DNA of 64,000 bases from assembly GCA_026126215.1 (NCBI GenBank), contig JAHCJQ010000001.1:62001-126000 (forward strand), given 5' to 3'. How positions within the stretch are numbered: the stretch's first letter is position 1; every line of letters begins with the position of its first letter. This DNA comes from Alphaproteobacteria bacterium. Lineage in GTDB: Bacteria > Pseudomonadota > Alphaproteobacteria > Ferrovibrionales > Ferrovibrionaceae. This document shows positions 9,344-46,997 of the stretch, piece after piece. The position numbers were made by a program, and so were the translations under genes. The notes below the pieces were generated by a model. It was not told the DNA's origin and did no database searches. It worked only from the letters and a program-made list of their open reading frames with translations.

Positions 9344-9350
9344 AGGCGCG

Positions 9351-9362
9351 CCCCGGCCGGGG
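9351..9362. terminator. Palindrome between convergent genes, possible bidirectional stop
   Basis: A perfect 12-base GC palindrome, CCCCGGCCGGGG, fills most of the 28-base gap between the receiver gene and the convergent hydrolase-glycosyltransferase gene. It could pause transcription from both sides, but there is no loop or T-run, so the terminator call is weak. Confidence 0.25.
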
Positions 9363-9371
9363 ACCCGGCTC

Positions 9372-11480: not shown

Positions 11481-11484
11481 GGCG

Positions 11485-21164: not shown

Positions 21165-21210
21165 CGGCAACCCCAAGGATCAGCTTGTGAATATTAGCGT
21201 TTCGCAATTT

Positions 21211-21228
21211 CTATACCGGATAGTATAG
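21211..21228. promoter_or_regulatory. Inverted repeat operator between TetR gene and RND pump
   Basis: Perfect six-base arms CTATAC and GTATAG flank a six-base spacer CGGATA. The AT-rich site lies 47 bases upstream of the TetR start and 85 bases upstream of the adaptor start. Size and position suit a TetR dimer site controlling both divergent units. Confidence 0.55.
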
Positions 21229-21312
21229 TTATCCTTCTTCCATCGCAAGACGCGAACCGGTCTGCGTCTGCGGTGCGTGAACGCCCCCGGGGCAACAGGG
21301 CGCAGGCGGACC

Positions 21313-22428: not shown

Positions 22429-22432
22429 GCGC

Positions 22433-25501: not shown

Positions 25502-25510
25502 GCGTGGTGT

Positions 25511-28191: not shown

Positions 28192-28199
28192 CTTGTCCG

Positions 28200-28673: not shown

Positions 28674-28711
28674 CGACAGAACTCCGGATGAGCCGCGAGG
28701 ACATAATAATA

Positions 28712-28736
28712 AGCTACATATATTATATGGATAGCT
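28712..28736. promoter_or_regulatory. AT-rich palindrome upstream of MarR-emrAB operon
   Basis: The core CATATA-T-TATATG (28717-28729) is a perfect 13-base palindrome, flanked by AGCTA on one side and TAGCT on the other. It stands in an AT-rich stretch between the MarR gene and the divergent secreted-protein gene. This is the expected place and type of site for MarR autoregulation. Confidence 0.5.
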
Positions 28737-28887
28737 GATAAAATTCATCGGCCATGGCACGCGGACTTGTTGACTTGGGTCATTGCGGAGCCAAGCAGAG
28801 TCGCCATGCTAAAGGGGTTGGAGACCCTTCAGACGGGAAACCGGCCATCGACCGATACCCGGCCGGCATGCAATCGGGGGAACGCAC

Positions 28888-30070: not shown

Positions 30071-31282
30071 ATGAAACCATTGCCGACGACCGGTGCGGAG
30101 AAGACGCGGAAGGAGGCGCAGGACCGCACCGCCATCGCCCTTATCTGCGCGGCGCATTTCGTGAGCCATTTCTACATCCTGCTGCTGCCGCCGGTCTTCG
30201 CGCCGGTTCGCGAGGAGATGGCGGTGAGCTATACCGCCCTTGGCCTGGCGCTCACCGCCTTCAATCTGGTCTCCGCCCTCATGCAGACGCCCACCGGTTT
30301 TCTCGTCGACCGGATCGGCGCGCGTCCGGTGCTGGTCGCGGGACTGCTGCTGGGCGCCTTCGCCATCATGCTGGTGGCGGCCCTGCCCTCCTACTGGATG
30401 CTGGTGGCCGCCTTCGCCCTGCTGGGCCTGGCGAATACGGTCTATCACCCGGCGGACTATGCGATCCTTGCAAGCACGGTGAGCGAGGCGCGGATCGGCA
30501 AGGCATTTTCCGTCCACACCTTTGCCGGCTATATCGGCATGGGTGTCGCGCCGGCGACGATCCTCTCCATCGCCGCCGTCTGGGGATGGCGCGGCGCCTG
30601 GTGGGCGGCGGCCGGACTGGGCTTCGCGGTGGCTTTGGCGCTGATCTTCTTCGGGCAGGTGCTGACGGCCCGGCGGCGGATCGCGGCACCACTCCAGACC
30701 GGGGCCAGGGCGCCGGATGGCTGGCGCCTGCTCTTCTCGGCGCCCATCCTGCGCAACCTGTTCTTCTTCGTGCTGCTCGCCATGTCGAACGGCGGCATCC
30801 AGAACTTCAGCGTCGTGGCGCTGGGCTCGGTCCATGGCACCGCGCCGGCGATCGCCAATGCGGGCCTCTCGAGCTTCCTCATCCTCAGCGCCTTCGGCGT
30901 GCTCGTGGGCGGCGTAATCGCCGACCGCACGCGGCGCCACGAGCGCGTGGCCGCCATCTGCTTCGTCGCCACATCCGGCATGGCCTTCATGATCGGCTGG
31001 CTCGATCTCGGCGCCACCCTGCTGGTTCTGCTGATGGCCTGGGGCGGCCTGATGAACGGCATCATCCAGCCCTCGCGCGACATGATGGTGCGGGCGGTGA
31101 CGCCGCCCGGGTCGTTCGGCAAGGTGTTCGGATTCGTCTCGACCGGCTTCAATATCGGCGGCAGCGTCTCGCCCCTGCTCTATGGCTGGTGCATGGATCT
31201 TGGCCGGCCGGGACTGGTCTTTGCCTTCGTCGGCGGCTTCTTCCTGCTCTCGCTGTTGACCGTGATCACCCGGCGCCCCTGA
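30071..31282 (+). CDS. MFS transporter
   Basis: A 403-residue, twelve-helix major-facilitator protein. Helix 1 carries HFVSHFYILLLPPVFAPVREE, a pattern seen in fosmidomycin-resistance-type and related transporters. The loop 2-3 motif is GFLVDRIGARPVLVAGL. The substrate is unknown. The ATG at 30071 is the first plausible start. Its end overlaps the convergent amidase gene by 17 bases. Confidence 0.87.
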   Translation: MKPLPTTGAEKTRKEAQDRTAIALICAAHFVSHFYILLLPPVFAPVREEMAVSYTALGLALTAFNLVSALMQTPTGFLVDRIGARPVLVAGLLLGAFAIMLVAALPSYWMLVAAFALLGLANTVYHPADYAILASTVSEARIGKAFSVHTFAGYIGMGVAPATILSIAAVWGWRGAWWAAAGLGFAVALALIFFGQVLTARRRIAAPLQTGARAPDGWRLLFSAPILRNLFFFVLLAMSNGGIQNFSVVALGSVHGTAPAIANAGLSSFLILSAFGVLVGGVIADRTRRHERVAAICFVATSGMAFMIGWLDLGATLLVLLMAWGGLMNGIIQPSRDMMVRAVTPPGSFGKVFGFVSTGFNIGGSVSPLLYGWCMDLGRPGLVFAFVGGFFLLSLLTVITRRP

Positions 31283-32537
31283 GCCTGCCGGACAGCCAGG
31301 CGGCTGTCATCAGCAGCTCCCGGTCGCGCCCCGCCAGCCCGACGAGCTGCACGCCGAGCGGCAGGCGACCCTTTCCGGGCAGAGGCACATTGATGCAGGG
31401 CGTGCCGAGCAGGGTCCAGATGCGGTTGCAGGCCGGATCGCCGGTTCCCGCTGAAATCTCCGGCGCGACGCCTGGCGCCGCGGCGGTCACGATCACTTCA
31501 TCCTCGCCCAGGTGCGATGCCAGGTGGCGGGCGGCCTCCGCCTTGAGCGCCAGCGCACCGGCATAGGCCGCATCGTCGACCCTCTCGCCGGCACGGCAGA
31601 GTTCGGTGAATTGCGGACTGACCAGATCCGCGTGCCGGCGAAGGAGATCGCCAAAGCCTTCGGCGGCCTCCCGCGACATGATGGATTTCTGCGCCTCTTC
31701 CAGCCTGCCGAAGAGCGCGGGCGATTCAAGGTCGCGGATTGTAGCCTGCCCCCACAGCATGTCTCGGAGACGGGCGAACTGCACCCTGGTCTCGTCCGAC
31801 ACGAGAGGCCAGTAGGGGCCGGTGAAGAAGGCAAGTCTTGGCCTGTTGGCCAGCGCTCCGGGCGCGGCAGGGATTCTTCCTTCGGAAAGAACCGCGCCGA
31901 TCAGGGCCAGATCGTCCACGCTGCGGGCAAAGATCCCCGCCGTGTCGAGACTGGGCGAGAGCGGCTTGACGCCGGTCATGTCGATCAGGCCGAAGGTCGG
32001 CTTGTAGCCGTGAATCCCGCAATAGGCGGCCGGGCGGATGGTCGAACCGGCGGTCTGCGTGCCGAGCGCCACCGGCACCATCGCGTCCGCGACGGCAGCG
32101 GCCGAACCGCTGGAGGAGCCCCCCGGCGTGCGGCGCGGATCATGCGGATTGACGGTCTCCGCCGGCCGGAAATAGGCGAACTCCGTCGTCGCGGTCTTTC
32201 CCAGGATGACCGCACCCGCCGCGCGGAGGCGCGCGACCATGACGCAATCGCGCGCCGGCCGGTGTCCGGCGAAGATCGGCGAGCCGTATTCGGTCGGCAT
32301 GTCCACCGTGTCATAAACGTCCTTGATCCCGACCGGAATCCCGGCCAGCGGCCCCACGCCGACCGAGGACGGGTCGTACGAAGCGGGCAAATGCGCCCAG
32401 GCACGGATGATGCTCTCCCGCGCGCCAATCCGTGCAAGGCAGGCGGCGAGAACTTCGCCGCCGGACACCGCGCCGCTGCCGATCAGCCGGCGCAGTTCCG
32501 TGGCGGTCAGACATTCAAGGGAGAGGTCCATCGGCAT
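31266..32537 (-). CDS. Amidase-signature family amidohydrolase (short form)
   Basis: A 423-residue amidase with the Ser-cisSer-Lys triad: K72 in IPVGIKDVYDT, cis-serine in TPGGSSSGSAAA (about 142) and nucleophile S165 in TQTAGSTIRPA. Such enzymes hydrolyse amides to acids and ammonia. It is slightly shorter than the second amidase encoded 14 bases upstream on the same strand, so the pair is probably one operon. Its neighbourhood (IclR regulator, ring oxygenases, importer) suggests hydrolysis of an amide intermediate such as a formamide or maleamate-like compound, but that is inference. Confidence 0.9.
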   Translation of the reverse strand: MPMDLSLECLTATELRRLIGSGAVSGGEVLAACLARIGARESIIRAWAHLPASYDPSSVGVGPLAGIPVGIKDVYDTVDMPTEYGSPIFAGHRPARDCVMVARLRAAGAVILGKTATTEFAYFRPAETVNPHDPRRTPGGSSSGSAAAVADAMVPVALGTQTAGSTIRPAAYCGIHGYKPTFGLIDMTGVKPLSPSLDTAGIFARSVDDLALIGAVLSEGRIPAAPGALANRPRLAFFTGPYWPLVSDETRVQFARLRDMLWGQATIRDLESPALFGRLEEAQKSIMSREAAEGFGDLLRRHADLVSPQFTELCRAGERVDDAAYAGALALKAEAARHLASHLGEDEVIVTAAAPGVAPEISAGTGDPACNRIWTLLGTPCINVPLPGKGRLPLGVQLVGLAGRDRELLMTAAWLSGRLRGAG

Positions 32538-32551
32538 ATCCCCGCGATGGT

Positions 32552-33979
32552 TCAGCCGGCCGCCCGCATGGCGGATAAGCCTGCAGGTTCCCCGAGCTTC
32601 AGATCCCGCGCCGCTTCATAGGCCGCCGCAAGCGCCAGCACCCGCGCCTCGGCAAACCGCGGCCCGATGATCTGCAGGCCGATGGGAAGGCCATGGCCGG
32701 ACATGGCGCAGGGCAAGGTGATGGCCGGACTCTGGATCAGATTGACCGGATAGCCAAACGGCGTCCAGGCACGCGGATCGTCGAGATCCCCGAAGCCCTC
32801 CGGAACCCAGCGATCGGCAGCGAAGGCCGTGACACTCACCATCGGTGTCAGCAGGAGGTCGAAGCGCTCGAAGAAGCGGGCGAACGCAGCCGCCAGCGCG
32901 CGCCTCGCATCCTGGGCTTCGAGATAGGCGTGCAGGCTCACCTCGCGACCCTTTGCCGCCACGTCGCGCAGCACCTCGCCGACGAGCGTCATCTGATCCG
33001 GGCCGAACCCCCGCAGCGCATAACCGAAGCCCGACCTGAACAGCGTGTTGAACGTCTGGATCGGATCGTCGATCTCGGGATGGGCCTCCGAGACCTGGGC
33101 GCCGAGACCGGCGATCGTCTCGCCCGCCCGGCGGATGGCGGCGGCGATCTGCGGATCGACGCGGCGGGCATAGCCAAGATCGGTACTCAGCGCCACACGC
33201 AATCCTCTGGGCGCGTGCGCCGAAAGGTCGAGCCAGTCCTGCGGTGGCGGCGGCGCACTTTCCACATCGCGCCCGTCAGGCTTCGCGAGAATGCCGAGCA
33301 TGAGCGCCGCGTCCGCGACCGAACGGGTTATGGCCCCCGGGCTCGACAGGTTTCCGGCGACATTGGCCGGCCAGGCAGGAACCCGTCCACCGGTGGGCTT
33401 CATGCCAACGACGCCACAGAAGCCGGACGGGATTCGGATTGAACCTCCGGCATCGGTGGCAAGCGCTGCGTAGCCCAGTCCGGCGGCAATACTGGCGGCA
33501 GCGCCGCCACTCGATCCGCCGGAGTTCATGGCCGTGTTCCACGGATTGCGCGTGATTCCCGTAAGCGGACTGATCGTGATCGGCCCCGCGCCGAATTCCG
33601 GCGTGGTGGTGATGCCGAGCAGCACGGCACCCTGTTCGAGCACGCGCTCGACGGCTGGCGCGCTGGCCGGCGCGGGCTCGGCGGAGGTCGCGCGCGAACC
33701 CCGCCGGTGCGGCACGCCGCCCACCATGAGCGTGTCCTTTACCGAAAGCGGAACCCCGTCGAGGGGACCCAACGGCGCGCCTTTTCGCCAGCGCGACTCG
33801 GAGCGCTGCGCCGCCTCCAACGCAAGCGAGGCCGTCACCGCCGTGTAGCTGTTGATCCGTCCGTCGAAGGATTCGATGCGCCGGAGGATCGACTTGGTGA
33901 CCTCGACCGGAGAGAGTTCGCCCGAGGCGTAACGCTGACCGAGGTCGCGGATCGTGAGAAACGGCAGGTCTTGGGTCAT
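32552..33979 (-). CDS. Amidase-signature family amidohydrolase (long form)
   Basis: A 475-residue amidase with K81 (VPLSVKDTL), cis-serine in NSGGSSGGAA (about 156) and nucleophile S180 in DAGGSIRIPSGF, the canonical triad in canonical spacing. FFERFDLLLTPMVSVTAF and the C-terminal GLPIGLQIIGPRF blocks complete the family. The start is uncertain: ATGs at 33979, 34003 and 34033 are in frame and none has a strong ribosome-binding site. It lies divergent from the IclR gene and upstream of the second amidase. Two amidases in tandem hint at two successive amide hydrolyses, or one active on the incoming substrate. Confidence 0.9.
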   Translation of the reverse strand: MTQDLPFLTIRDLGQRYASGELSPVEVTKSILRRIESFDGRINSYTAVTASLALEAAQRSESRWRKGAPLGPLDGVPLSVKDTLMVGGVPHRRGSRATSAEPAPASAPAVERVLEQGAVLLGITTTPEFGAGPITISPLTGITRNPWNTAMNSGGSSGGAAASIAAGLGYAALATDAGGSIRIPSGFCGVVGMKPTGGRVPAWPANVAGNLSSPGAITRSVADAALMLGILAKPDGRDVESAPPPPQDWLDLSAHAPRGLRVALSTDLGYARRVDPQIAAAIRRAGETIAGLGAQVSEAHPEIDDPIQTFNTLFRSGFGYALRGFGPDQMTLVGEVLRDVAAKGREVSLHAYLEAQDARRALAAAFARFFERFDLLLTPMVSVTAFAADRWVPEGFGDLDDPRAWTPFGYPVNLIQSPAITLPCAMSGHGLPIGLQIIGPRFAEARVLALAAAYEAARDLKLGEPAGLSAMRAAG

Positions 33980-34051
33980 CCTGGGCCTATCGCCGGATTG
34001 CATGGGGAGTATCGGGCGGCTATCTTGTCGCATTCTGCAATACCGAACAAG

Positions 34052-34177: not shown

Positions 34178-35011
34178 ATGCCCGCCGCACGAAAGTCGAG
34201 CAGACCTCGCTCCGCAGACCAGCAACGTCGCCGTAGCGTTCAGTCCATCAAAGTCGGCTCGGCATTGCTGAATGCCCTCGCCGGCTCCGCAAGGCCGGTC
34301 CCGTTGAATGAACTCTCGCGGCTCGCCGGCATGCCGCCCAGCAAGGCACGGCGCTATCTCATCTCGTTCCTGGATTGCGGTCTCGCCGAACAGAACAGTA
34401 TCTCCGGTCACTACGATCTCGGCCCGATGGCGCTTCGCCTCGGGCTGGCGGCGCTGAGCCGCATCGATCCGGTCCGGGCTTCCGTCGAGGCCGCCGCCAC
34501 GCTGTCGCGGCAGATCGATCGCACGCTGCTGGTATCGGTGTGGAGCGAGCGGGGCCCCGTCATCATTGCCTGGTTCGACAGTACGGAAATTCTTGCCTGC
34601 AACCTTCGCGTCGGATCGGTTCTGCCCCTCGCGAACAGCGCCAGCGGCAACCTGTTCCTGACCCATCTTCCGCGCAAGACGACGCGGCATCTTGTCGATC
34701 AATGGACCAGGCAGGCAACCGCCGGCGGACAGATTTCGAGGACCAAGGCTCGGGAAGAGCTCGAGCGGATCATCGAGACGGTGCGCCGGTGCGGTGTCGG
34801 TACGACGCAGGAGAGCCTGCTGCCCGGCCTCTCCGCCATCGCAGCGCCGGTCTTCGACAGCAACGGAAGCATCATCGCGGCCATCGCCGAGATCCACAAG
34901 GCGCAGGACGCGACCATCGACCCGAAGGCGCTTGGCCAGCTCCTCATCCAGACGGCGAACGAGGTTTCCGCGAAGGTCGGCTACCGGTGGCAGGCTTTCC
35001 AGGAAGCCTAG
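34178..35011 (+). CDS. IclR family transcriptional regulator
   Basis: A 277-residue regulator with a winged helix at about residues 22-85 (VPLNELSRLAGMPPSKARRYLISFLDCGLAEQ in outline) and the IclR effector domain at about 95-265, ending in EVSAKVGYRW. IclR proteins often control aromatic-catabolism genes and bind the pathway substrate. It is divergent from the two amidases and convergent with the flavodoxin end of the long catabolic run. That makes it the obvious regulator of the cluster. Confidence 0.92.
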   Translation: MPAARKSSRPRSADQQRRRSVQSIKVGSALLNALAGSARPVPLNELSRLAGMPPSKARRYLISFLDCGLAEQNSISGHYDLGPMALRLGLAALSRIDPVRASVEAAATLSRQIDRTLLVSVWSERGPVIIAWFDSTEILACNLRVGSVLPLANSASGNLFLTHLPRKTTRHLVDQWTRQATAGGQISRTKAREELERIIETVRRCGVGTTQESLLPGLSAIAAPVFDSNGSIIAAIAEIHKAQDATIDPKALGQLLIQTANEVSAKVGYRWQAFQEA

Positions 35012-35090: not shown

Positions 35091-35612
35091 TCAGCGCGCG
35101 ATGTCGGTCCGGGCTTTGCCGGAGGCCATGTCGGCATCGGCTCCGACTGCAATGGCAAGCCAGTCGGCAAGCCAGGGCCTCGCCACCTCTGCCGGATCGT
35201 CACCCGTCTGGCAGTCGATCTTCAGGATCTCCCCGACCCGGCGCGCGCCGCATTGCCGCAAGGCATCGTCCCAATGGAGCCCACCCTTCGCGAAGGTATC
35301 GCCATAGTGCGAATCGCCAAGTGAGATGACGCCAAATCTCAGCGCGCGCAGCTCGGGCTTCTCGGCCAGGAGTGACGCAAGCGCGCGCTCCGCCGTCTCC
35401 GGGACGTCACCTGTTCCATACGTGCTCGAGACGACGAGCGCCAGCCCTGTGGTTGGAAAGTCGGCCGCCACGGCGTTCTCGAGCAGGCGAAGCTCGACCT
35501 TTTCCGGCCCGCCAAGCTCTGCCTGAAGGTCTTCCGCGAGCATCTCCGCAGCGCCGGTCATGGTTGCCACCAGGATGACCAGCTTTCCAGCCTCTGACTG
35601 CAACTCCGGCAC
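35091..35612 (-). CDS. Flavodoxin / MioC-like FMN protein
   Basis: A 173-residue flavodoxin-fold protein. The phosphate loop is ATMTGAAEMLAEDL, the 60s loop SSTYGTGDVPETAE and the 90s region SLGDSHYGDTFAKGG, all FMN contacts; the pattern is closest to the flavodoxin domains of sulfite and cytochrome P450 reductases. As the last gene of the minus-strand run, 12 bases after the CoxG-like gene, it could pass electrons to the Rieske oxygenase or accept them from the molybdenum hydroxylase. No separate ferredoxin reductase is encoded here. The start is a GTG at 35612. Confidence 0.87.
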   Translation of the reverse strand: MPELQSEAGKLVILVATMTGAAEMLAEDLQAELGGPEKVELRLLENAVAADFPTTGLALVVSSTYGTGDVPETAERALASLLAEKPELRALRFGVISLGDSHYGDTFAKGGLHWDDALRQCGARRVGEILKIDCQTGDDPAEVARPWLADWLAIAVGADADMASGKARTDIAR

Positions 35613-35624: not shown

Positions 35625-36092
35625 TTACACCGGGCCTGGCTCGCCTGCATCGCCGGGCTCGATCCGGGCGACAAGGTTCTCGAAGAACTGGAGCGTCAGG
35701 CGCGTCGCCACGCCCTGCACCACCCGCGAGCCGATCTGCGCGAGCTTCCCGCCAATCGCCGCATGCACATTGTAACGGATCAGTGTCGCCCCCTGGCTCT
35801 CGATGAGCTCGACCTGCGCATTGCCTTTGGCAAAACCCGCGACACCGCCCTGTCCTTCGCCGACGATTGCGCAGCGGTGAGGCTGCTGGATGTCCTCCAG
35901 GCGGACGCTGCCCTTGAACTTGGCCTTGAGCGGTCCGACCTTGACCTGCACTACCGCGTCGAACTCGGTATCGGACTTCTTGTGCAGTTCCTGGCAGCCG
36001 GGGATCGCATCCCGCAGGACGTCAGGGTCGTTGATCGCATCCCAGACAGCGTGCTTAGGGCTTCTAATCAGGTGCTCGCCAGCGAAGTTCAT
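35625..36092 (-). CDS. CoxG-like SRPBCC carbon-monoxide-dehydrogenase-subunit-G family protein
   Basis: A 155-residue lipid/START-like fold with the CoxG signature: AVWDAINDPDVLRDAIPGCQEL, VVQVKVGPLKAKFKGSVRLED and AIGGKLAQIGSRVVQGVA. CoxG proteins accompany molybdenum hydroxylases and are thought to help membrane recruitment or maturation. The start overlaps the stop of the large-subunit gene by four bases (ATGA), so it is translationally coupled. The family call is firm; the CO-related name should not be taken as the activity of this cluster. Confidence 0.88.
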   Translation of the reverse strand: MNFAGEHLIRSPKHAVWDAINDPDVLRDAIPGCQELHKKSDTEFDAVVQVKVGPLKAKFKGSVRLEDIQQPHRCAIVGEGQGGVAGFAKGNAQVELIESQGATLIRYNVHAAIGGKLAQIGSRVVQGVATRLTLQFFENLVARIEPGDAGEPGPV

Positions 36093-38479
36093 TTACGGTC
36101 TCCATCCACGGCCAATTGCCGGCGACGCATCTCCCGCAGCAGATAACTAGGCCGCAAGGGAAGCCGGTTGATGTTGGCCCCGGTCCTCGCCAAGGCATCC
36201 GCGACGGCATTGGTGACCGCCGGCACGGCGCCGATCACCCCGCCCTCGCCCACGCCCTTGAAGCCACCAAGTGCGTCGATCGAAGGCGTCTCGATGTGCG
36301 AAATGTCGATCTGCGGCACGTCGAGCGCCATTGGCATCAGGTAGTCGAGCAGGTTGGCATTAAGCATCTGCCCGTCCTCGTCATAGACGATCTGCTCCAT
36401 GAGTGCCTCGCCGATTCCCTGGACGATGCCGCCGTGAATCTGCCCGTCGACGATCATCGGGTTGATCAGGCGGCCGGAATCATGGACGACGACATACTTC
36501 TCGATGCTGACCTTCGCGGTCCTCCGATCCACGGCCACGACGACCGCGTGCACGGCGTTTGGCCAGGTGGCAAGCGGCGGGTCATACATCTCGACGACCT
36601 CGAGACCGAAGCTCTCGCCCTGCGGCAGGGCCACGGATGTCATTGAGTAGGCAATCTGCGCCACCTGCCGGAAGTCGACGGACTTCTCCGGGTTCTCCTT
36701 GTCGATCGCCTTGCTCTCGGTAAGCTCCACGCGCTCCACGTCCACATCGAGCAGGAAGGCGGCGATCCGCGCGATCTTCTGGCGCAGCGACTGCGCGGCC
36801 TTGATGACCGCGCCGCCCGCCGCTACCGCACCGCGGCTCGCGAAGGTATTAGTGCCGTAAGGGGCGGTGGCCGTGTCGCCCTCCGAGACGAAAACGTCTT
36901 CGACCTTGACACCGAGGTAATCGGCGAGCACCTGCGCAAACGTCGTCAGGTGTCCCTGCCCAGCGGCGGCCTGGCTTACCAGCAACGTCACCTTGCCCGT
37001 CGGTTCCACCTTGATCGATGCGCTGTCGAATCCCGGCACCTTGGTGAGGCCGCGGACCCGCCAGCCACCCGACCCGGCTCCGGCGACTTCCGTGAAGCAG
37101 CATATGCCGATCCCGCGCAGCACCTCGTCGTCGTCGCGCGCCTCTGCCTGCCGCTTGCGGAAGTTCCAGTAGTCGACCCGCTCCAGGGCACGCCGCAGGC
37201 ACTCCTCGTAACTGCCCGTGTCGTAGCGGACCCCCAGGACGTTGGTATAGGGGAGTTGTTCGCTCCGGATCAGGTTGCGCTGCCGCACGGTCGCCGGATC
37301 GATGCCGAGCTTGCGGCCGATCCGGTCCATCAGGCCCTCGATCGCCATGAAGCAGGAGGGCTGCGCGACGCCCCGGTAGGCGCCCGAGGGGCAGGTGTGG
37401 GTGGCAATCGCCCGGGTGTGGAAGGCGTAGTTCCGGATGTCGTACGGCCCGACGATCATGCGCGCCCCACCCGTCGCCTCGAGCGTGCAGCCGAATGGAT
37501 AGCTCGAATAGGCCCCGGCATTCGTCGTCAGATCGGTTCGAAGGGCCTTGATTCGCCCTTCACCGTCGATGGCCGCCTCCAGCCGGTAGATATGATCGCG
37601 CGCATGGATGCTGGTCAGCAGCTCCTCGCGGCGGTCCTGGACCCACTTGATGGGCCGGCGAAGGTTGAGCGCCAGCGCCGCCGTTACCACTTCCTCGGTA
37701 TAGAACTGGGCCTTGGTGCCGAACCCGCCGCCCACTTCCGGCGTCACGACGCGGATCCGGGGTTCGGGAAAATCGAGAATCTCCGAAAGCGCGGTCCGGG
37801 CCAGATGGGGGATCTGCGTCGAAGTGTAGAACAGCAGCGAGTCCGCCACGTGATCGAGCAGCGCGAGACAGCCGCGCGGTTCCAGCGGAACACCGGCGAC
37901 ACGGCCGGTGCGGAAGGTCTCGCTGACAATCATTTCTGCCGATTCGAATGCGGCTTGAAAGTCCGGCGAGGCGAATGCGGCCTCGAACATGACGTTGCGC
38001 GGAATATCCTCATGCACCAAAGGCGCGGATTCGGAGTCAGCCTCCTCGAGCCGCACCGCGGCCGGTAGCGGTTCGTAATCGACCTCGATCAGCTCGGCCG
38101 CATCCTGCGCGATGTAGGGGTCCTCGGCGACGACGACCGCCACATGTTCGCCGACGAAGCGGACCTCATCCTGCGCCAGCACCATCCGGGAGCTGGCACG
38201 ATAGCCCTGGATCTCGATGACGGTGCGGATCGGCTTGACGAACCGGGCCATGTCCTCCGCCGTATAGACGGCAACCACGCCCGGGAGGGCGCTGGCGGCG
38301 TCCGTGCGTATCGCGAGGATGCGGGCATGGGCGTGCGGGCTCATGGCGAAGCTCAGAAAGAGCGTATCCTTCGGTTCCGCGATATCGTCCAGAAACCGTC
38401 CCTCGCCGCGCAGGAGATAGGGATCCTCCCGGCGCGGGACATGCTTGCCGATGCTGCGTGGATGGCCTTGTGCAATCAT
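36089..38479 (-). CDS. Molybdenum hydroxylase large subunit (xanthine dehydrogenase family)
   Basis: A 796-residue molybdopterin-cytosine-dinucleotide-binding subunit of an aerobic hydroxylase. The N-terminus SIGKHVPRREDPYLLRGEGRFLDDI is typical. The active-site loop reads TCPSGAYRGVAQPSCF, with AYRG and not the AYxCSFR loop of true CO dehydrogenase. The catalytic glutamate lies in GVGEGG near the C-terminus, and GGFGTKAQFYTEE is the usual cofactor-contact segment. It should insert a water-derived hydroxyl into an aromatic N-heterocycle or an aldehyde. Its start overlaps the small-subunit stop and its end overlaps the CoxG-like start, both by four bases. Confidence 0.92.
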   Translation of the reverse strand: MIAQGHPRSIGKHVPRREDPYLLRGEGRFLDDIAEPKDTLFLSFAMSPHAHARILAIRTDAASALPGVVAVYTAEDMARFVKPIRTVIEIQGYRASSRMVLAQDEVRFVGEHVAVVVAEDPYIAQDAAELIEVDYEPLPAAVRLEEADSESAPLVHEDIPRNVMFEAAFASPDFQAAFESAEMIVSETFRTGRVAGVPLEPRGCLALLDHVADSLLFYTSTQIPHLARTALSEILDFPEPRIRVVTPEVGGGFGTKAQFYTEEVVTAALALNLRRPIKWVQDRREELLTSIHARDHIYRLEAAIDGEGRIKALRTDLTTNAGAYSSYPFGCTLEATGGARMIVGPYDIRNYAFHTRAIATHTCPSGAYRGVAQPSCFMAIEGLMDRIGRKLGIDPATVRQRNLIRSEQLPYTNVLGVRYDTGSYEECLRRALERVDYWNFRKRQAEARDDDEVLRGIGICCFTEVAGAGSGGWRVRGLTKVPGFDSASIKVEPTGKVTLLVSQAAAGQGHLTTFAQVLADYLGVKVEDVFVSEGDTATAPYGTNTFASRGAVAAGGAVIKAAQSLRQKIARIAAFLLDVDVERVELTESKAIDKENPEKSVDFRQVAQIAYSMTSVALPQGESFGLEVVEMYDPPLATWPNAVHAVVVAVDRRTAKVSIEKYVVVHDSGRLINPMIVDGQIHGGIVQGIGEALMEQIVYDEDGQMLNANLLDYLMPMALDVPQIDISHIETPSIDALGGFKGVGEGGVIGAVPAVTNAVADALARTGANINRLPLRPSYLLREMRRRQLAVDGDRK

Positions 38480-39000
38480 TTTCTGCTCTCCCCGGCCGGG
38501 TCGGCCGTGGTCTTGTCGCGGTCCCTGGCGGCGTTTGCTATGGCCTTGACGATGTTCACATAGCCTGTGCAGCGGCATAGGTTGTTGGACAGGGCGGCGC
38601 GGATCTCCTGTTCGCTCGGCTCTGGGTTCTCCGACAGAAACTCCTCCGCCGTCAGAAGAACCCCGGGCGTGCAGTAACCGCACTGCAGCCCGTGGGCGTC
38701 ATGAAACGCCTTCTGCAGACCTGCCAGCCGGCCGTCGGCAGACAGCCCTTCCAGCGTCTCGATCTCGGCCCCTTGCACCGCAACCGCGAAATGCAGGCAG
38801 CTTCGCGCGGTCCGTCCGTCGATCCGCACCGTACAGGCACCACAGACGCCGTGTTCGCAGCCGATATGCGTGGCTTTCAATCCGACATCGTGCCGGATGA
38901 AATCGACGAGGAGGCGACGCGGCTCCACCTGGCGGGTGTAGCTCTTGCCGTTGATCGTCAGCGTCACGTCCGTTTTCCTGAGGGAAGTTGCCTGCGACAT
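38476..39000 (-). CDS. Molybdenum hydroxylase small subunit, two [2Fe-2S] clusters
   Basis: A 174-residue iron-sulfur subunit. A plant-ferredoxin-type cluster is held by C48, C53, C56 and C68 (CEHGVCGACTV and SCLHF). The second, helical-domain cluster is held by C107, C110, C142 and C144 (CGYC and CRC). Electrons pass from the molybdenum site through these clusters to FAD. The ATG at 39000 overlaps the FAD-subunit stop by one base (TGATG). Residues after 150 are a short charged tail. Confidence 0.94.
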   Translation of the reverse strand: MSQATSLRKTDVTLTINGKSYTRQVEPRRLLVDFIRHDVGLKATHIGCEHGVCGACTVRIDGRTARSCLHFAVAVQGAEIETLEGLSADGRLAGLQKAFHDAHGLQCGYCTPGVLLTAEEFLSENPEPSEQEIRAALSNNLCRCTGYVNIVKAIANAARDRDKTTADPAGESRK

Positions 39001-39884
39001 CAGATGCTCCTCGCCCTGCCGGCGGCACCGGAGGCGACCTGTATCAGGGCGCGTTCGACCAGCACGGCCACTAGTTCGCGGCGGTAGGCCGCATCGGCAT
39101 GAAAATCCCCAGCGACATCGACGAGTGACGCAGTCAGGCGGCCCGCCTCGCGCGCGGCGGCCTCGTCGATGATGCTGCCGGCGAGCGCCACCTCGGTATC
39201 GCTGGCGCGTTTCGCGATGTTCTCGCCGCCCATGACCGCCAGGCGTGCCCGGCGGCACCGGCCATCTTCGCCGAACGTGACTTCCAGGGCGACGCCGGCG
39301 ATTGCAAAACCATGGTTGCGGTTGCCGAGTTCGATGAAGCACGAGCGCGATCCGGTAGGGGCATACGGGAACCGTACCGCCTCGAGAATCTCGTCGGGCC
39401 TGAGACTGTTCTCCAGGGCACCGACGAAGAATTCCCGCGCCGGCACGACGCGCCGTCCGGTGCTGCTCGCCGCGATCATGTCCGCATCGAGCGCCAGCGC
39501 CACGGCCGGAAGTTCAGCCAGCGGATCAGCATGCGCGAGGCTGCCGCAAACCGTGCCCCGGTTGCGGTTCGACCTGGCGCCCACATGATGCAGCGCCTGG
39601 ACCAAAAGCGGGCAGCGCTGGATCGCCACCTGGTCGTGCTCGACATCCCACTGGCGGGCCAGTGCGCCGCAGACGAGCCCATCCTCCTCGGCCCTGATGT
39701 AGGAGAGTTCCTTGCAATGATTGATGCTGACGAGCACGGATGGCTGCAGCATGCGCAGGTTCATCAGCGGGACCAGGCTCTGTCCGCCGGCCAGGATGCG
39801 CGCGGCCTCGCCGTGTTCCCGCATTTCCTCCAGCACGCCGTCCAGGCTGACGGGCGCCCGAAACTCGAATGGAGCTGGTTTCAC
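39000..39884 (-). CDS. Molybdenum hydroxylase FAD subunit
   Basis: A 294-residue FAD-binding subunit (CoxM type). The FAD signature blocks are AARILAGGQSLVPLMNLRM near residue 35 and TVCGSLAHADPLAELPAVALAL near 110, followed by the CO_deh_flav_C domain. It passes electrons from the [2Fe-2S] subunit to an unknown acceptor. Gene order FAD, FeS, Mo subunit is that of cox-type clusters. It lies 19 bases downstream of the NicX-like gene. Confidence 0.93.
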   Translation of the reverse strand: MKPAPFEFRAPVSLDGVLEEMREHGEAARILAGGQSLVPLMNLRMLQPSVLVSINHCKELSYIRAEEDGLVCGALARQWDVEHDQVAIQRCPLLVQALHHVGARSNRNRGTVCGSLAHADPLAELPAVALALDADMIAASSTGRRVVPAREFFVGALENSLRPDEILEAVRFPYAPTGSRSCFIELGNRNHGFAIAGVALEVTFGEDGRCRRARLAVMGGENIAKRASDTEVALAGSIIDEAAAREAGRLTASLVDVAGDFHADAAYRRELVAVLVERALIQVASGAAGRARSI

Positions 39885-39903: not shown

Positions 39904-40956
39904 TCATCGCCGGGCCGGATCGGTCTTGATACGCAGGTTCCGCGAGGCGGCCACCAGTTCCGCGGGCGCCACCGCGATGCCGGCCTCGATCATGAGCTGG
40001 CCATCGACCCAGATCGACTGATCGCCGACCACGACATCCGGATGGTTCTCGCCGCCGCCCGGAACCCACCAGGGCAGGCCGAGACCGACGGCGTTCATGC
40101 CCATTACGCGCGAATCCTCGATGAAGGACTGCCCGGTGCGGCGCGCAGCCGGGTGCATGGCGAAGGTGAAATGGATGATGTACCCATAGTCCCCATTGCC
40201 GGCACGGCGGAGCGCCCGCTCCAGTACGTGCCGGTCCGCGCCACCGCCATGAACGGACCGGATCCGCCCGTCCACCTCGATGGTGACCTGGCCGTCGAAC
40301 GGCGTGAAGTATTCATGGAAACCGGCTTCGGTCCGGATCACGCCCTTCACCGACTCGATATCCGGGAACATGGTGCAGGAGCCGGGAACCAGGTAGGTAC
40401 CGGGCTTCAGCGCGCGGCGCGGCTTGCCATAGGCCGACTTGCCCAGTCGGAAGGTCACGTCGGTGCCCCTGGAATTGGCAACACGGATTTCGGTGCCTTC
40501 GGGCTGCGTGAGAACCTTCGAGAAGACGTCGAAGGCGCTTTGATATTCGTCCAGATCGACGCCGCCGAAGAGGCGCGTCAGGCCGCCGGCCCCCATATCC
40601 CCGCCCAGCAGATAGCGTACCTTGCCGCTTTCCATCGCGTGGTCATGCACGCTCGACCCGGCGAGATAGGGGAAGGTCAGGTCGATCCAGACATCGCAGC
40701 GCGAGACCGCGCCTTCGAGGATCGCCGGGATGAAGGGGTCGCAGAGCTTGCCCTGGAATGGCAGCCGGGGGACCTCCACGACGACCGGCCGCGCGCCGGC
40801 CGCGAGCGCGCTGGCGAACACCGCCTCCGCCGCCCGCGCGTCGGTCGCCGTATCGGTCGTTATAAGGACGTTGCTGTCCGCGCCGATGTTCATGTAATCG
40901 GCAAGAACGTCGGCCGCGAGCCTGAGTTCCGGCCCCATTTCCCCGCCGCGGCTCAA
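39904..40956 (-). CDS. NicX-like M29-fold protein, putative ring-cleavage dioxygenase
   Basis: A 350-residue protein, the same length as 2,5-dihydroxypyridine 5,6-dioxygenase (NicX) of Pseudomonas. That family shares the M29 aminopeptidase fold but binds ferrous iron through two histidines and an aspartate (H265, H318, D320 in NicX, as I recall). Here the equivalents are H262 (YGYIIHFTFAMHPAAR), H305 and D307 (NHPDVVV), with the same H-x-D spacing. VHGGGADRHVLERAL near 235 matches the conserved glycine-rich block before the first ligand. Overall identity outside these blocks appears low, so the true substrate may differ. Its start overlaps the Rieske gene stop by four bases. A plain aminopeptidase is the alternative. 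Confidence 0.65.
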   Translation of the reverse strand: MSRGGEMGPELRLAADVLADYMNIGADSNVLITTDTATDARAAEAVFASALAAGARPVVVEVPRLPFQGKLCDPFIPAILEGAVSRCDVWIDLTFPYLAGSSVHDHAMESGKVRYLLGGDMGAGGLTRLFGGVDLDEYQSAFDVFSKVLTQPEGTEIRVANSRGTDVTFRLGKSAYGKPRRALKPGTYLVPGSCTMFPDIESVKGVIRTEAGFHEYFTPFDGQVTIEVDGRIRSVHGGGADRHVLERALRRAGNGDYGYIIHFTFAMHPAARRTGQSFIEDSRVMGMNAVGLGLPWWVPGGGENHPDVVVGDQSIWVDGQLMIEAGIAVAPAELVAASRNLRIKTDPARR

Positions 40957-42122
40957 CGGACCACCCCACTTGGGCTGCCATCCGGCCCGAAGATGCGGGC
41001 CAGATAGGCGTTCAGATAATGATGCAGCGGCTTTTCGAGGTAGGACATGCGCCCTGGCTTGTAGCTCGGCAGGGACATGGCCCGCTGCATCGATTCCATC
41101 ATCGAGGTGTCCTCGCCCAGCACCTTGAGCTGGTACTGGCGATAGACTTCCGCCTTATCGTGGAAGTCTGGACGTTCAAAGAACTCTTCCGGGAAGAGAT
41201 GATAGATGAAGACCTCGCAGCGGTCTGGACCGAGCGGCCAGGCCACGAACGGCCGCACGCAGTCGATCCGGCCGAACACGGTCAGGTTCGGCATCATGAA
41301 GCCGTGCGAGGCGAAGCTCGAATCGCGGTCCTGCATCCAGGGCATCTTGCCGAGCAGCATTTCCCCGCCCGGGGTCGGTGGCGCGGCCTTGTACCAGATC
41401 GAGAACTCGCCGCGATCGCGGAGAACCACGTCGTCGTTCTTCCACGAGAAGTTCGATCCGAACGTTCCGGCATGAAGGACGTTGACATGGTAGAAGTCCA
41501 TGATGTTCTCCGGCACGAACTTCCAGTTGCAGTTCAGTTCCAGCCGGATCTTGTTGGCGAGTCTGCAACGGTCCATCTGGAGGAAACCGAAATCCTTCTC
41601 GAAGGGTGCGATTGCCTCCTCGAAGCTCCGGCCGTCCTGGTCGAAGCAGATGAAGATGTTGCCGCGCCAGACATCGAGGCGGATCGCGCGCAGCCGGCAG
41701 TCTTTTGCATGAAAGCCCTCGCTCGCATCCATGTGCGCGGCGCCCTTGAGTTGCCCCGTCAGGTCATAGACCCAGCCATGATACGGGCACTTGAACGAGC
41801 GCGTATTCCCGCAACCCGCCGCGACCTCGACGCCACGATGGACGCACATGTTGTAGAAGGCATTCAGATTGCCAGACCGGTCCCGCGCGATCACGATCGG
41901 CTCGTCGCAGATCCTGAGCGTCATGTAGTCGCCCGGGTTGGGGATCTCCTCCACGCGGGCGACCATCAGCCAGTCCTTCATGAAGAGCAGCTCGACTTCC
42001 TTCCGATAGACTTCCGAAGAGTGATAGATCGCCCCCGGAGCATGCGACGCCAGCTCCAGCCGCTGCCGCGGGCCGGACAATTTTCCGCCAGGCTTCGCCG
42101 TTTCGACAGCCATATCCGCCAT
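40953..42122 (-). CDS. Rieske aromatic ring-hydroxylating oxygenase, alpha subunit
   Basis: A 389-residue oxygenase component. The Rieske cluster is held by C93 and H95 (MCVHRG) and C112 and H115 (CPYHGW). The mononuclear iron site has D209, H212 and H217 (NIMDFYHVNVLH). Such enzymes hydroxylate or demethylate aromatic rings with electrons from a reductase or flavodoxin. No beta subunit or reductase is encoded nearby, which suggests a homotrimer of the demethylase/KshA type or use of the flavodoxin at 35091. The ATG at 42122 has GGAGGTG upstream; the first in-frame start at 42164 is unlikely. Confidence 0.93.
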   Translation of the reverse strand: MADMAVETAKPGGKLSGPRQRLELASHAPGAIYHSSEVYRKEVELLFMKDWLMVARVEEIPNPGDYMTLRICDEPIVIARDRSGNLNAFYNMCVHRGVEVAAGCGNTRSFKCPYHGWVYDLTGQLKGAAHMDASEGFHAKDCRLRAIRLDVWRGNIFICFDQDGRSFEEAIAPFEKDFGFLQMDRCRLANKIRLELNCNWKFVPENIMDFYHVNVLHAGTFGSNFSWKNDDVVLRDRGEFSIWYKAAPPTPGGEMLLGKMPWMQDRDSSFASHGFMMPNLTVFGRIDCVRPFVAWPLGPDRCEVFIYHLFPEEFFERPDFHDKAEVYRQYQLKVLGEDTSMMESMQRAMSLPSYKPGRMSYLEKPLHHYLNAYLARIFGPDGSPSGVVR

Positions 42123-42252
42123 TGTCCTCACCTCCGTAATTCCAGCCATCCCTGCCAGGCCCACTCGCCCCGCCTGTCGTTCGCCGGGCGCGAGTCCGGC
42201 GCGGCCCCGTCACGGGAAGGCTCCTTGCCGCTATGTTACAATGCACAACGAA

Positions 42253-42302: not shown

Positions 42303-43553
42303 CTAGCGCTTCGATTTCGGCAACGGGTGAATGACGTTCGCGGTCTTGAGTTCAGGCGGATACACCAGTTTCGGGACGCCGCCCTGGAACTGACTGGGAT
42401 AGACGGTTCCACCCTGGTTGAGGCCGTCGTCGGCGAACCTCACCGTCGAGAAGAAGGTCTCTCCGTTCATGTCGATGAATGCCTTGCGCAACTTGACCGG
42501 ATCGCCCGCGCCACCGGCCGCCATCAGCGCCAGCATGCCCGTCACGATAGTGTTGGCACCGTTCGCGGCGACGAAGTCCGGCGGAGCCGACCCATAGGCT
42601 TTTTCGTACCGCTTCGCGAAGTCGCGACTGGTGCCGATGATCGGGTCCTTCGTCTTGTCGAGGGTCGGGTCCCAGAAGGTTGGGGCGAAGACACCCTCCA
42701 GGTCCGGGCCCAGGGCCTCTGCCAGAGAGGTCGGCGCCTCGACGATCACGACCGGCGGGAAATAGTTGATCGACTGCATCTCCTTGTATACGCCGATGAT
42801 CTCCGGCGTGTAGCAGTTGATGATCAGGATCTCCGGATTGGCCCGCCGCACCCGGTCGAGGGCGGAGGAGAATTCCTGCGTGCCTGGCGGGAAGAACTCT
42901 GCCGCCACCAATTCCAGCCCAGCTTTCTTGACGTCCGATGGCACATACTGGTTGACGGTGAACACCCCAAGCTCGTCCTGCGGAGTGATCAGTCCGACTT
43001 TCCTTACGCGGGGATTCTCGAACTTCGACACCATTTCGAGGATCATCGTGTAGTAGAGGCTGAAGGGTGGCATCGGGCCGAACACGTAAGGAGCGCCCTT
43101 CTGACCGGCGAATACGCCATCCACCTGCGCCCAGAACGCGACCATCGGCGTGCGCAGGCGCTGCGCCACCGGAATCACGGTCTTGACGTTGACACTGCCA
43201 ACGCCGGCGATGACCAGGTCGGTCTTCTCGTTGGTGATCGCCCGCTCGACCAGTCGGGCGGCGGTGGCAGCATCCGTCTTGTCATCATACTCGGTGATGT
43301 TGAGCCTGACCGGGGCACCGCCGATCTTGATCTGCGCCTCGTTCACGGCAGCAACAGCCAGGTCGACGCCCCGCTTCAGTTCTGCACCATATCTGGCAAA
43401 CCGGCCCGACAGGCTGTTGACGATCGCGAAGTTCAACTGACCGGCCGCCGCGGCTGCCGGGTTGGAGATGAATGGGGCGCCGACCGCCGCCAGTCCGGCG
43501 GCACCGCCTGCCTTGAGCACCTGTCTGCGTGTGATCGCTGAACGCTTCCGCAT
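42303..43553 (-). CDS. Branched-chain-amino-acid-type ABC substrate-binding protein
   Basis: A 416-residue periplasmic binding protein of the LivK/UrtA family (Peripla_BP_6). A twin-arginine-type leader (TRRQVLKAGGAAGLAAVGAP) replaces the usual Sec signal, suggesting export in folded form. The mature part begins LNFAIVNSLSGRFARYGAELKRGVDLAV, a typical ligand-binding opening. In catabolic clusters such proteins often bind aromatic acids rather than amino acids. It lies five bases downstream of the LivF-type ATPase gene and before the Rieske gene. Confidence 0.9.
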   Translation of the reverse strand: MRKRSAITRRQVLKAGGAAGLAAVGAPFISNPAAAAAGQLNFAIVNSLSGRFARYGAELKRGVDLAVAAVNEAQIKIGGAPVRLNITEYDDKTDAATAARLVERAITNEKTDLVIAGVGSVNVKTVIPVAQRLRTPMVAFWAQVDGVFAGQKGAPYVFGPMPPFSLYYTMILEMVSKFENPRVRKVGLITPQDELGVFTVNQYVPSDVKKAGLELVAAEFFPPGTQEFSSALDRVRRANPEILIINCYTPEIIGVYKEMQSINYFPPVVIVEAPTSLAEALGPDLEGVFAPTFWDPTLDKTKDPIIGTSRDFAKRYEKAYGSAPPDFVAANGANTIVTGMLALMAAGGAGDPVKLRKAFIDMNGETFFSTVRFADDGLNQGGTVYPSQFQGGVPKLVYPPELKTANVIHPLPKSKR

Positions 43554-43558
43554 GATTC

Positions 43559-44299
43559 CTAGCCTCCCAAGTAAGTGGAAACAATCTGGGGGTCCTTGAG
43601 CAGCTCGCCCGCCGGTCCCTTGAGCACCACGTGCCCGGACTGGATGACGCTCGCGCGATCGGAGAAACCCAGAGCCACGGAGATGTCCTGCTCGACAAGC
43701 AGAACGGTGGTACCTGCCGCGTGAATCTTCGACAGGATATTGAGCAGCTCCTCCACAATGATCGGAGCCAGCCCAAGCGAAAGCTCGTCGATGATGAGCA
43801 GTTGCGGCGCGGTCATGAGCGCGCGACCGATGGAACACATTTGCTGCTCGCCACCCGAAAGCGTGCCGGCCAGCTGGCGCCGGCGCTCGAACAGCTTCGG
43901 GAAGTAGCCGAAGATCTCGTCGAGCGCCCGGTCAATGTCCGCCCGGCCTCGGGCGGCGCGCCGATAGGCGCCGAGCCGCAGATTCTCCTCGACGGAGAGC
44001 CCGCGAAATACCCGGTGCCCTTCGGGAGCCTGGGAGATGCCGAGTTCCACTATGTCGGCCGGGGAGGTCCTGGAGATATCCCGGTCACCGAAAAAGACAC
44101 CGCCTGCATCCGGCCGGATCAGCCCGGAGATCACCCGCAGCAGCGTGGTCTTTCCTGCGCCGTTCGCGCCGACGATGGCATGAATTTCGCCGCGTTCGAC
44201 TTCGAGTCCGATTTCATGCAGAACCTCGATCGGGCCGTAGCCCGCGCGAAGTTTCCGCACGCTCAGGATCGGCCGGGAGAGCCCCTGTTCAGCGCCCAC
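43559..44299 (-). CDS. livF: ABC transporter ATPase, LivF type
   Basis: About 246 residues with Walker A GANGAGKTT, the signature LSGGEQQM, Walker B LLIIDELSLGLAP and the H-loop replaced by the usual Liv sequence LLVEQD. IVELGISQAPEGHRVFRGLSVEENL is the LivF-specific Q-loop region. The GTG start at 44299, with GGGAGG upstream, overlaps the LivG gene end by 11 bases. It pairs with the LivG-type ATPase to energise the importer. Confidence 0.93.
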   Translation of the reverse strand: MGAEQGLSRPILSVRKLRAGYGPIEVLHEIGLEVERGEIHAIVGANGAGKTTLLRVISGLIRPDAGGVFFGDRDISRTSPADIVELGISQAPEGHRVFRGLSVEENLRLGAYRRAARGRADIDRALDEIFGYFPKLFERRRQLAGTLSGGEQQMCSIGRALMTAPQLLIIDELSLGLAPIIVEELLNILSKIHAAGTTVLLVEQDISVALGFSDRASVIQSGHVVLKGPAGELLKDPQIVSTYLGG

Positions 44300-45077
44300 C
44301 GGCCGCCTCCCTGCCCTTTCGCAGCCTGGCATAACGCTCCACCGCGCCGCCGACATCGCCGAGATACGCCTTCTGGACGTCGGCGTTGCGCACGATCTCC
44401 TGCGGCGTGCCCTCGGCAAGCTTCGTTCCATTGGCCAGAACGATGACGCGGTCGCTGATCGCCATCACCGCGTGCATGATGTGTTCGATGAAGATGATGG
44501 TCATGCCGCGGTCGCGGATCGACCTGATAAGGGAGAGCGACTCCTTCACCTCGGCCTGGTTCAGCCCGCTCAGCGGTTCGTCGAGAAACACCAGCGACGG
44601 ATCGCTGGCCAGGCAGCGCGCAAGTTCGAGGCGTTTGAGACCCGCCGTCGTCAGCGTGCGCGCCGGATTGCCGGCGGCCGCGCCGAGGCCGACCCAGTCC
44701 AGCACTTCGCGCGCCCTTGCCCGGGCCTGCGGCATCGACCGCCTGGTCCCGCCGCTGCCGAAAAGCGCCGAGGCCATGACATTCTCCTCCACTGTCAGGC
44801 CGATGAAGGGCTGCGGGACCTGGAAGGTTCTGGCCAGGCCCAGCCGGCAGCGTTGATGGGGCTCCAGATCCGTGATGCTGCGATCCCTGTAGGCGATCTC
44901 GCCACCGCTGCATTTCAGCGTGCCGGTCAACAGATTGACGAAGGTGGTCTTGCCGGCCCCGTTCGGACCGATCAGGCCGACGATTTCGCCCTTCGATATC
45001 GAGACCGTGACGTCGTTGACGGCAACCAGGCCGCCAAAGCGCTTCGTCAGGTTCCTGACCTCGAGCTCCGCTGCCAT
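44289..45077 (-). CDS. livG: ABC transporter ATPase, LivG type
   Basis: A 262-residue ATPase with Walker [11 protein letters not shown]-loop region [19 protein letters not shown], and a signature slightly unusual for the family ([32 protein letters not shown] in outline), with LTTAGLKR in place of LSYGQQR. The Walker B aspartate and glutamate are intact, and [20 protein letters not shown] is the LivG H-loop. The ATG at 45077 overlaps the LivM stop as TGATG. Confidence 0.92.
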
Positions 45078-46135
45078 CAATCGACCTTGTAGCGCCGGAA
45101 GTTGCCAAGGATGACCCGCGGCGAGAGCGCCACAGGGCCGCGCCGCATCACCTCGATCAGCCCATCGGGCTGCAGAAGCACGATCGCGACCACGATGACG
45201 CCGGAGATGATGGTGCTGATCTCGGCGAACTCCACGCCGATGAACTCGTTCAGCGTGAAGACCAGGAAGACGCCGATCACCGGCCCCCAGACGGTTCCAC
45301 GTCCGCCAAGGAACACCATGACGATGACCTGGAATGTCACCGCGAGATCGAAGGCCGATGTCGTATCGAATGTTCCAAGCCAGATCGATGAGGTGATGCC
45401 GACCGCCGCCGCGATCGCCGCGCTGAGCACGAAGATGGCGAGCTTGACCCCGGCAACCGGTATGCCGATGGCGGAGGCGGCTCCTTCGGCGTCGCGGATC
45501 GCCTTGAGCGCCAGTCCCCAGCGGGAACGCTCCACCAGCGCCACGAGAAGCATGGCCATGCCCGCGAGGCCCGCCATGATGTAGTAGAAAAGCCGGTTGT
45601 ACTCGACCGCGCTCAGGTCCTGGAGGCCCGTGAAGGCACCGATATTCTGCGATATGGCGCCATGGAATCCGAAGATGTTGAGGTTCCGCGCACCGTTCAG
45701 AAGCGCTTCGCTGACGATCAGCGTGGCGATGACGAAATAGTGGCCCTGCAGCCGCAGGGTGGGTGCGCCGATCAGCAGCGCCAGGACCGAGGCGAGAAGG
45801 ATGCCTCCGGCAGCCGCCAGAAGCACGGGCGCGCCGTTCAGCAACAGGATGGTTGCCCCCAGCGCTCCCAGTCCGAAGAAGGCGGAATGTGCAAGCGACA
45901 TAAGCCCGACATAGCCGCCGATCAGGTTCCAGGACTGGGCAAGCGCGATATACATCAGGATCGTCCCGCCGACGCGCGAGCCATAGGCGCCGGCGAAGAA
46001 GGGTAACGCCAGCACAGCGGCGAGCAGTACCGCAAGACCGGCTGGCCCGCCGATGGTCCGCAGCATGACTGCACGGCCCGGCATGGCCCCGACGGCTTGC
46101 CCCCGGGCGTGACTTATCCCGCCATCAGGCCTCAT
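45077..46135 (-). CDS. livM: ABC transporter permease, LivM type
   Basis: A 352-residue inner-membrane permease with eight to ten hydrophobic segments. [24 protein letters not shown] is the LivM signature and [21 protein letters not shown] the conserved C-terminal loop. The first ATG overlaps the end of the livH-type gene by 11 bases. An internal start about 23 codons on ([10 protein letters not shown]) would begin just before the first helix and is equally plausible. Confidence 0.93.
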
Positions 46136-46997
46136 AGAATCTCCGGCCGAGCAGCCCCGACGGCCTCACCGCCAGAACGAGGAGTACAAGTAGAGTCCCG
46201 GCGAGAACGGCATATGTGCCACCCCAGAGATTGGCGACGATGCTCGATACCAGTCCCAGAACAAGGGCGCCGACAAGCGGCCCCACCATGCTGCCCAGAC
46301 CGCCCAGGACAGCGACGATGAGAACCTGGAGGAACTGGTGATCGCCCATCCCCGGCGAGACGCTGTAGATCACCGCCATCAGGGCGCCCATGGCGCCGGC
46401 CAGCGCACTGGAGATGCCGGCGACCACGTTGAAGATGAATCTTGGGCGAATGCCCACGAGCTGCGCGGATTCGAAATCCATGCGCGTCGCCCGGATCGCC
46501 GTCCCGAGCTCGGTCCTGTCCATGAACCACCAGACCAGCGCGGTCAGGCTCAGGGCGAAGAGCATCACCATGATGCGCGCATAGGTGAGGTGAGCGCCGC
46601 CGATCTGCACCGAACCGCGCAGATGATCCGGCAGCGCCACGCTCCGGTACTCGGCGGTGAAGAGATAGAGGGCAAGTCCGATCAGGATGAGATTGATGCC
46701 GTAAGTGAGGGCAATCGACAGGGAATGCGGGCCGCGCATCACGTAGTCGAGCAGCAGGCGCTGCAGGAGCCAGCCGAACACGAACATCACTGTCATCACG
46801 ATAGGGACGGCAGCGATCGGATCCATGCCCCAGAGGGCAAGGCCATAAGCGGCATAAGCCCCAAGCATGATCATGGCGGCATAGGCAATGTTCAGGACAT
46901 TCAGCACGCCCCATACAAGCGCGAAGCCCAGCGCCCCGATGGCGTAAAGCCCCCCGAGAAGAAGGGCGTCAAACCCTATCTGCAATGCTAGCGACAT
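46125..46997 (-). CDS. livH: ABC transporter permease, LivH type
   Basis: A 290-residue permease with GGLYAIGALGFALVWGVLNVLNIAYAA as first helix and family mark, and GGLGSMVGPLVGALVLGLV near the end. It is the first gene of the long minus-strand catabolic run, downstream of a candidate operator at 47042-47056. LivH and LivM form the membrane channel of the importer. Confidence 0.93.
   Translation of the reverse strand: MSLALQIGFDALLLGGLYAIGALGFALVWGVLNVLNIAYAAMIMLGAYAAYGLALWGMDPIAAVPIVMTVMFVFGWLLQRLLLDYVMRGPHSLSIALTYGINLILIGLALYLFTAEYRSVALPDHLRGSVQIGGAHLTYARIMVMLFALSLTALVWWFMDRTELGTAIRATRMDFESAQLVGIRPRFIFNVVAGISSALAGAMGALMAVIYSVSPGMGDHQFLQVLIVAVLGGLGSMVGPLVGALVLGLVSSIVANLWGGTYAVLAGTLLVLLVLAVRPSGLLGRRFYEA

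Follow-up and report, generated by a model that had tools for sequence, protein, structure and literature searches.

The closest characterised relative of the protein described here is NicX of Pseudomonas putida (PDB 7CN3, 7CNT and 7CUP), a 2,5-dihydroxypyridine 5,6-dioxygenase. In its crystal structure, the iron is held by four protein ligands—H265, S302, H318 and D320, each of which is essential—and the substrate is contacted by H105, E177 and H189; the serine ligand was presented as unreported before in such dioxygenases (PMC7910607). In the nicotinate pathway of P. putida (NicAB, NicC, NicX, NicD, NicF and NicE), a molybdenum hydroxylase is followed by a second hydroxylase, ring cleavage and amide hydrolysis. 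The M29 aminopeptidases (AmpS, AmpT and PepS) are the other described group to be weighed, and require E250, E316, H345, Y352, H378 and D380, all six shown to be essential when mutated (PMC7023490).

How does the present locus compare with these systems? The window—the whole 64,000-nucleotide stretch that we analysed—carries a gene for a NicX-like protein within a catabolic gene cluster. Along the minus strand, the genes of the Liv permeases, ATPases and binding protein are followed by those of the Rieske alpha subunit, the NicX-like protein, CoxM, CoxS, CoxL, CoxG, a flavodoxin and two amidases, and a divergent IclR regulator sits between the flavodoxin and the amidases:

42303..46997, minus strand: Liv-type ABC importer (binding protein, two ATPases, two permeases), from a reading of the translations
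40953..42164, minus strand: Rieske ring-hydroxylating oxygenase alpha subunit (Pfam PF00355, PF00848), bridging Asp kept
39904..40956, minus strand: NicX-like protein (350 aa with the TTG start, ~344 aa with the ATG at 40938); predicted iron site H262, H305, D307
39000..39884, minus strand: CoxM-type FAD subunit of a molybdenum hydroxylase (Pfam PF00941, PF03450)
38476..39000, minus strand: CoxS-type [2Fe-2S] subunit (Pfam PF01799, PF00111), start inferred from an ATG overlapping the CoxM stop
36089..38479, minus strand: CoxL-type molybdopterin subunit (Pfam PF20256, PF02738, PF01315), start inferred; the listed ORF reaches 38683
35625..36092, minus strand: CoxG-like protein (Pfam PF06240)
35091..35612, minus strand: MioC-like flavodoxin, possible electron carrier (Pfam PF00258; NCBIfam MioC model below cut-off)
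34178..35011, plus strand: divergent IclR-family regulator (Pfam PF01614, PF09339)
32552..34033, minus strand: amidase-signature amidase 1 (Pfam PF01425; NCBIfam NF004815 above cut-off)
31266..32537, minus strand: amidase-signature amidase 2 (Pfam PF01425)

The same five importer genes are syntenic in a sister genome (L048), and the Rieske ORF shares the four bases at its 3′ end with the beginning of the NicX-like ORF, as read from TTG. We saw no ferredoxin or reductase gene for the Rieske oxygenase in the operon; the MioC-like flavodoxin (35091-35612) might donate electrons to it. The nearest solved relative of this Rieske enzyme is carnitine monooxygenase, which suggested an N-demethylating role. 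We disfavour that role, because the bridging residue is Asp here, whereas the carnitine monooxygenase CntA has Glu. Elsewhere in the window (20514-28760), the translations read as efflux-like genes: a TetR-like regulator, a membrane-fusion protein and an RND pump, together with an MFS pump of the EmrAB kind, a fusion protein and a MarR-like regulator.

The homologs of the NicX-like protein align from M7, the ATG six codons past the TTG, so that the protein probably has ~344 residues. The sequence-only reading had pointed to a length equal to that of NicX (350). The count is right for the TTG start, but it is worthless as evidence, since that start is uncertain and the homologs align from M7; we dropped the equality as a likely accident of start choice. 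Neither Pfam nor NCBIfam yielded a match to the protein. A genuine NicX-type protein encoded in the same genome likewise lacks a Pfam match, and the missing match therefore cannot separate the two; PF26233, which we take to be a NicX family, is absent from the Pfam copy searched. The single-sequence AlphaFold2 model (mean pLDDT 35) was unusable for judging the fold or the clustering of the ligands.

We aligned the query with 14 homologs that are 42-54% identical to it, and used this alignment (A1) as a profile. Residues 262, 305 and 307 are His, His and Asp, and are invariant in all 15 sequences; R180, R283 and the block GxGxPxWxxGGGENHPD are also kept throughout. In the Protein Data Bank, the profile matched NicX alone at E<=10 (E=1.2e-8), with H262/H305/D307 falling on the iron ligands H265/H318/D320. 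The profile–profile comparison with six NicX-type proteins, which are NicX relatives (e.g., L047 versus 7CN3, E=2.1e-67), gave 99.6% probability across 301 columns. Moreover, the reverse search of the window's own genome with the NicX-type profile recovered the NicX-like gene at E=4.5e-8. Because the three residues are invariant among homologs of 42-54% identity, and the profile finds NicX with the ligands aligned, their agreement with NicX is, at the sequence level, more than a chance match. By the same comparisons, the sequence places the protein in the NicX superfamily, with a predicted iron site; the homology to NicX extends over most of the protein, and the two are 21% identical. The earlier assignment of H262, H305 and D307 to the ferrous-iron ligands of NicX is thus borne out by both the alignment and the invariance, but it had missed the fourth ligand, Ser302, which is unconserved here.

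The protein differs from NicX at several functional positions. In the joint alignment, the Ser302 position corresponds to Gly291, which is Gly in 15/15 clade members and Ser in 8/8 NicX-type proteins. The E177 position corresponds to residue 178, which is Lys or Arg in 15/15 clade members (Lys178 in the query), and which varies among the NicX-type relatives as well. The segment containing His189, a residue kept in all eight NicX-type proteins, is two residues shorter in the clade and has no conserved His, while H105 is variable even among the NicX relatives. From the replacement of Ser302 by Gly and of E177 by Lys/Arg, and from the loss of His189, we infer that the clade iron site would consist of three residues, and that the substrate would differ from that of NicX and would probably be acidic. 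The acidic group may be bound by Lys178, Arg180 and Arg283, each of which is either unchanged or basic in every clade member. Since the NicX substrate contacts are missing, the chemistry of the protein could also differ.

Could the protein nevertheless be a divergent 2,5-dihydroxypyridine 5,6-dioxygenase, catalysing the same reaction as NicX? It shares the superfamily and the H-H-D residues, and the Variovorax SRS16 member lies ~7 kb from a NicX-type cluster. However, H189 and S302 are absent, and the NicX-type profile search detected a separate true NicX, 49% identical to the crystal protein, on contig C171 of the window's own genome. Because the genome has this genuine NicX, the NicX-like protein is probably not the 2,5-dihydroxypyridine enzyme. 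In addition, both Variovorax SRS16 and genome G270 (L037) hold NicX-type and NicX-like genes side by side, which suggests different jobs. We consider an identical reaction quite unlikely.

The sequence-only reading had offered an aminopeptidase as the alternative to a ring-cleavage dioxygenase. The M29 enzymes resemble the NicX-like protein in the H-x-D metal motif and in a G-x-G-type segment before it. One NicX-like gene is annotated as 'leucyl aminopeptidase', and the Pfam model of M29 (PF02073) shows weak similarity at the N-terminus (E=0.3; 10.3 bits versus a cut-off of 27). PF02073 had no match in the whole of the window's own genome. In the joint alignment, the two-metal peptidase residues E250, H345 and Y352 are replaced by Ser193, Ala289 and a gap, respectively; the bridging E316 is aligned with Asp256, where the local alignment is unsure. 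H378/D380 do align with H305/D307, but this pair is common to NicX as well. Furthermore, the identity to M29 proteins is 13-14%, and the gene neighbours are oxygenases. An M29-type metallo-aminopeptidase or related hydrolase is accordingly very improbable, while a remote common origin of the two groups is likely.

Relatives with at least 44% identity occur in 9 of 385 genomes drawn from the same class, the window's own genome included, and several of these nine hold two to four copies. Copies annotated as 'hypothetical protein' also occur on plasmids, in Agrobacterium sp. T29 and in Variovorax sp. SRS16. Our search of viral contigs found no relatives, and that of the genome contig collection found nothing beyond a near-identical MAG copy. 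In the tree, the candidate clade (support 89/91), the NicX clade (99/99) and M29 (100/100) are all separate; the deeper branching order is unsure, because the tree contains two long-branch outliers. Two fragmentary copies were also observed: a fragment on pMOL30 of Cupriavidus metallidurans CH34 (L030:8001-8332), which covers 28% of the query in two pieces and has no gene annotated there, and a family copy split over two frames in G626 (L051/L056).

The clade, as distinct from NicX, is partnered mainly with Rieske oxygenases. Counting Ring_hydroxyl_A matches, of which the nine member genomes hold 1 to 56 each, we found a Rieske gene within 6 kb of 12/15 members (1.2 expected) and within 1.5 kb of 8/15 (0.39 expected). 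The nominal probabilities, 1e-13 and 1e-10, respectively, exaggerate the association, since catabolic genes occur in clusters and three of the genomes, G042, G173 and G270, are relatives of one another; the genomes with few Rieske genes (G000, G010, G084 and G198) each show the link on their own. In the adjoining Rieske proteins, the bridging Asp of ring hydroxylases is retained. The order Rieske–NicX-like gene–CoxMSL is found again at L033, in a genome from another bacterial family, where the identities are 52-62%. At L034:3876-6206 and L036:3071-5401, the NicX-like gene adjoins one for a 777-aa CoxL-type subunit, while no gene in the vicinity is labelled CoxS or CoxM, and at L034, F420-biosynthesis-like genes (CofC, CofD, CofG/H) lie beside it. 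At L038 and L040, a flavin monooxygenase adjoins the NicX-like gene in place of the Rieske gene, which suggests that Rieske and NicC-like enzymes occupy the same pathway slot. Among solved structures, the nearest relatives of the L038 enzyme are tropone 2-monooxygenase, which is the closest, and 6-hydroxynicotinate 3-monooxygenase (NicC).

Amide-type hydrolases—amidases, isochorismatase-family enzymes, hydantoinase and alpha/beta hydrolases—are found near many members. In Agrobacterium T29, an alpha/beta hydrolase directly follows the NicX-like gene, and the region also encodes an isochorismatase-family hydrolase, a flavin monooxygenase and a racemase-family relative of maleate isomerase (E=2.8e-11). 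These neighbours belong to the same broad families as NicD, NicF, NicC and NicE, a correspondence at the level of family alone.

The neighbourhoods also bear on another reading, in which a NicX-fold Fe(II) enzyme performs ring cleavage or another oxidation on a carbocyclic or non-aromatic Rieske product. Rieske oxygenases act mostly on carbocyclic acids, the flavin partner at L038 is closest to tropone 2-monooxygenase, and a fumarylacetoacetate-hydrolase-like gene near the L031 member could fit a carbocyclic pathway. Weighing against these points, the substrate of the characterised relative, NicX, is a pyridine, amide hydrolases turn up repeatedly in the clusters, and molybdenum hydroxylases of the CoxMSL kind often oxidise N-heteroaromatics. 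We judge a carbocyclic or non-aromatic substrate unlikely, though less so than a reaction identical to that of NicX.

We therefore favour the view that the protein is an Fe(II) ring-cleavage dioxygenase with the NicX fold, from an unnamed clade apart from NicX, and that it probably acts on a hydroxylated N-heteroaromatic compound. A NicX-like ring-cleavage dioxygenase for another substrate, as already put forward from the sequence, is the best-supported reading: NicX is the sole PDB match, the H-H-D residues are invariant, the substrate contacts are changed, the operon is catabolic, with two hydroxylases and amidases, and the genome encodes a separate true NicX. The aminopeptidase half of that earlier interpretation is disfavoured. 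The N-heteroaromatic nature of the substrate is suggested by the gene neighbours and by analogy with NicX, which shares the catabolic setting of hydroxylases upstream and amide hydrolases downstream. A more specific proposal, which we put forward tentatively and hold at slightly under an even chance, is that the clade combines a 2-His-1-carboxylate iron site lacking the serine of NicX with the opening of an acidic N-heteroaromatic ring fed by Rieske oxygenases.

In the proposed pathway, the Liv-type importer would bring in the N-heteroaromatic compound, and the CoxMSL molybdenum hydroxylase would place an oxygen from water beside the ring nitrogen. The Rieske oxygenase would then hydroxylate a ring carbon, which is the job of the flavin enzyme NicC in nicotinate breakdown. 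Subsequently, the NicX-like protein, with Fe(II) on H262/H305/D307 and O2, would split the electron-rich ring next to the nitrogen. Ring opening would yield an open-chain amide or formamide, which the two amidases would hydrolyse. The analysis itself shows the homology to NicX, the conserved ligands, the missing Ser302 and His189, and the arrangement and linkage of the genes; the dioxygenase activity, the class of substrate and the sequence of steps are proposals. The logic proposed here is the same as that of the nicotinate pathway, with a Rieske oxygenase standing in for NicC and amidase-signature enzymes for NicD and NicF; unlike in that pathway, no maleate isomerase gene was seen in the window's cluster. 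Our literature searches on Rieske enzymes with pyridine ring cleavage, homarine catabolism and trihydroxypyridine dioxygenases returned no matching system, and we found no description of Rieske-fed opening of pyridine-type rings in the searchable papers.

A natural clade with Gly at the place of Ser302 would offer a test of whether ring cleavage depends on the serine or whether this ligand is a peculiarity of NicX, and the substrate of the clade, once found, would add a Rieske-fed route to the opening of heterocyclic rings. The query has no family match, and 'hypothetical protein' is the label of both intact members that carry an annotation, so that the catabolic clusters of this clade currently go unread.

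Two NicX-type loci deserve mention in their own right. At L037:1289-4130, a further NicX-type gene has a Rieske oxygenase gene before it and, after it, an aconitase-family gene along with a small ORF; the Rieske linkage is thus not limited to the new clade. At L069 (C171, 15500-27213; especially 7228-11712), the true NicX-type gene is accompanied by aconitase-family and PEP mutase/isocitrate-lyase-family genes, and a divergent alpha/beta hydrolase gene, a CoxL-like gene and a Liv-type importer lie nearby. This locus possibly encodes a pyridine pathway in which a hydratase and a lyase take the place of maleate isomerase.
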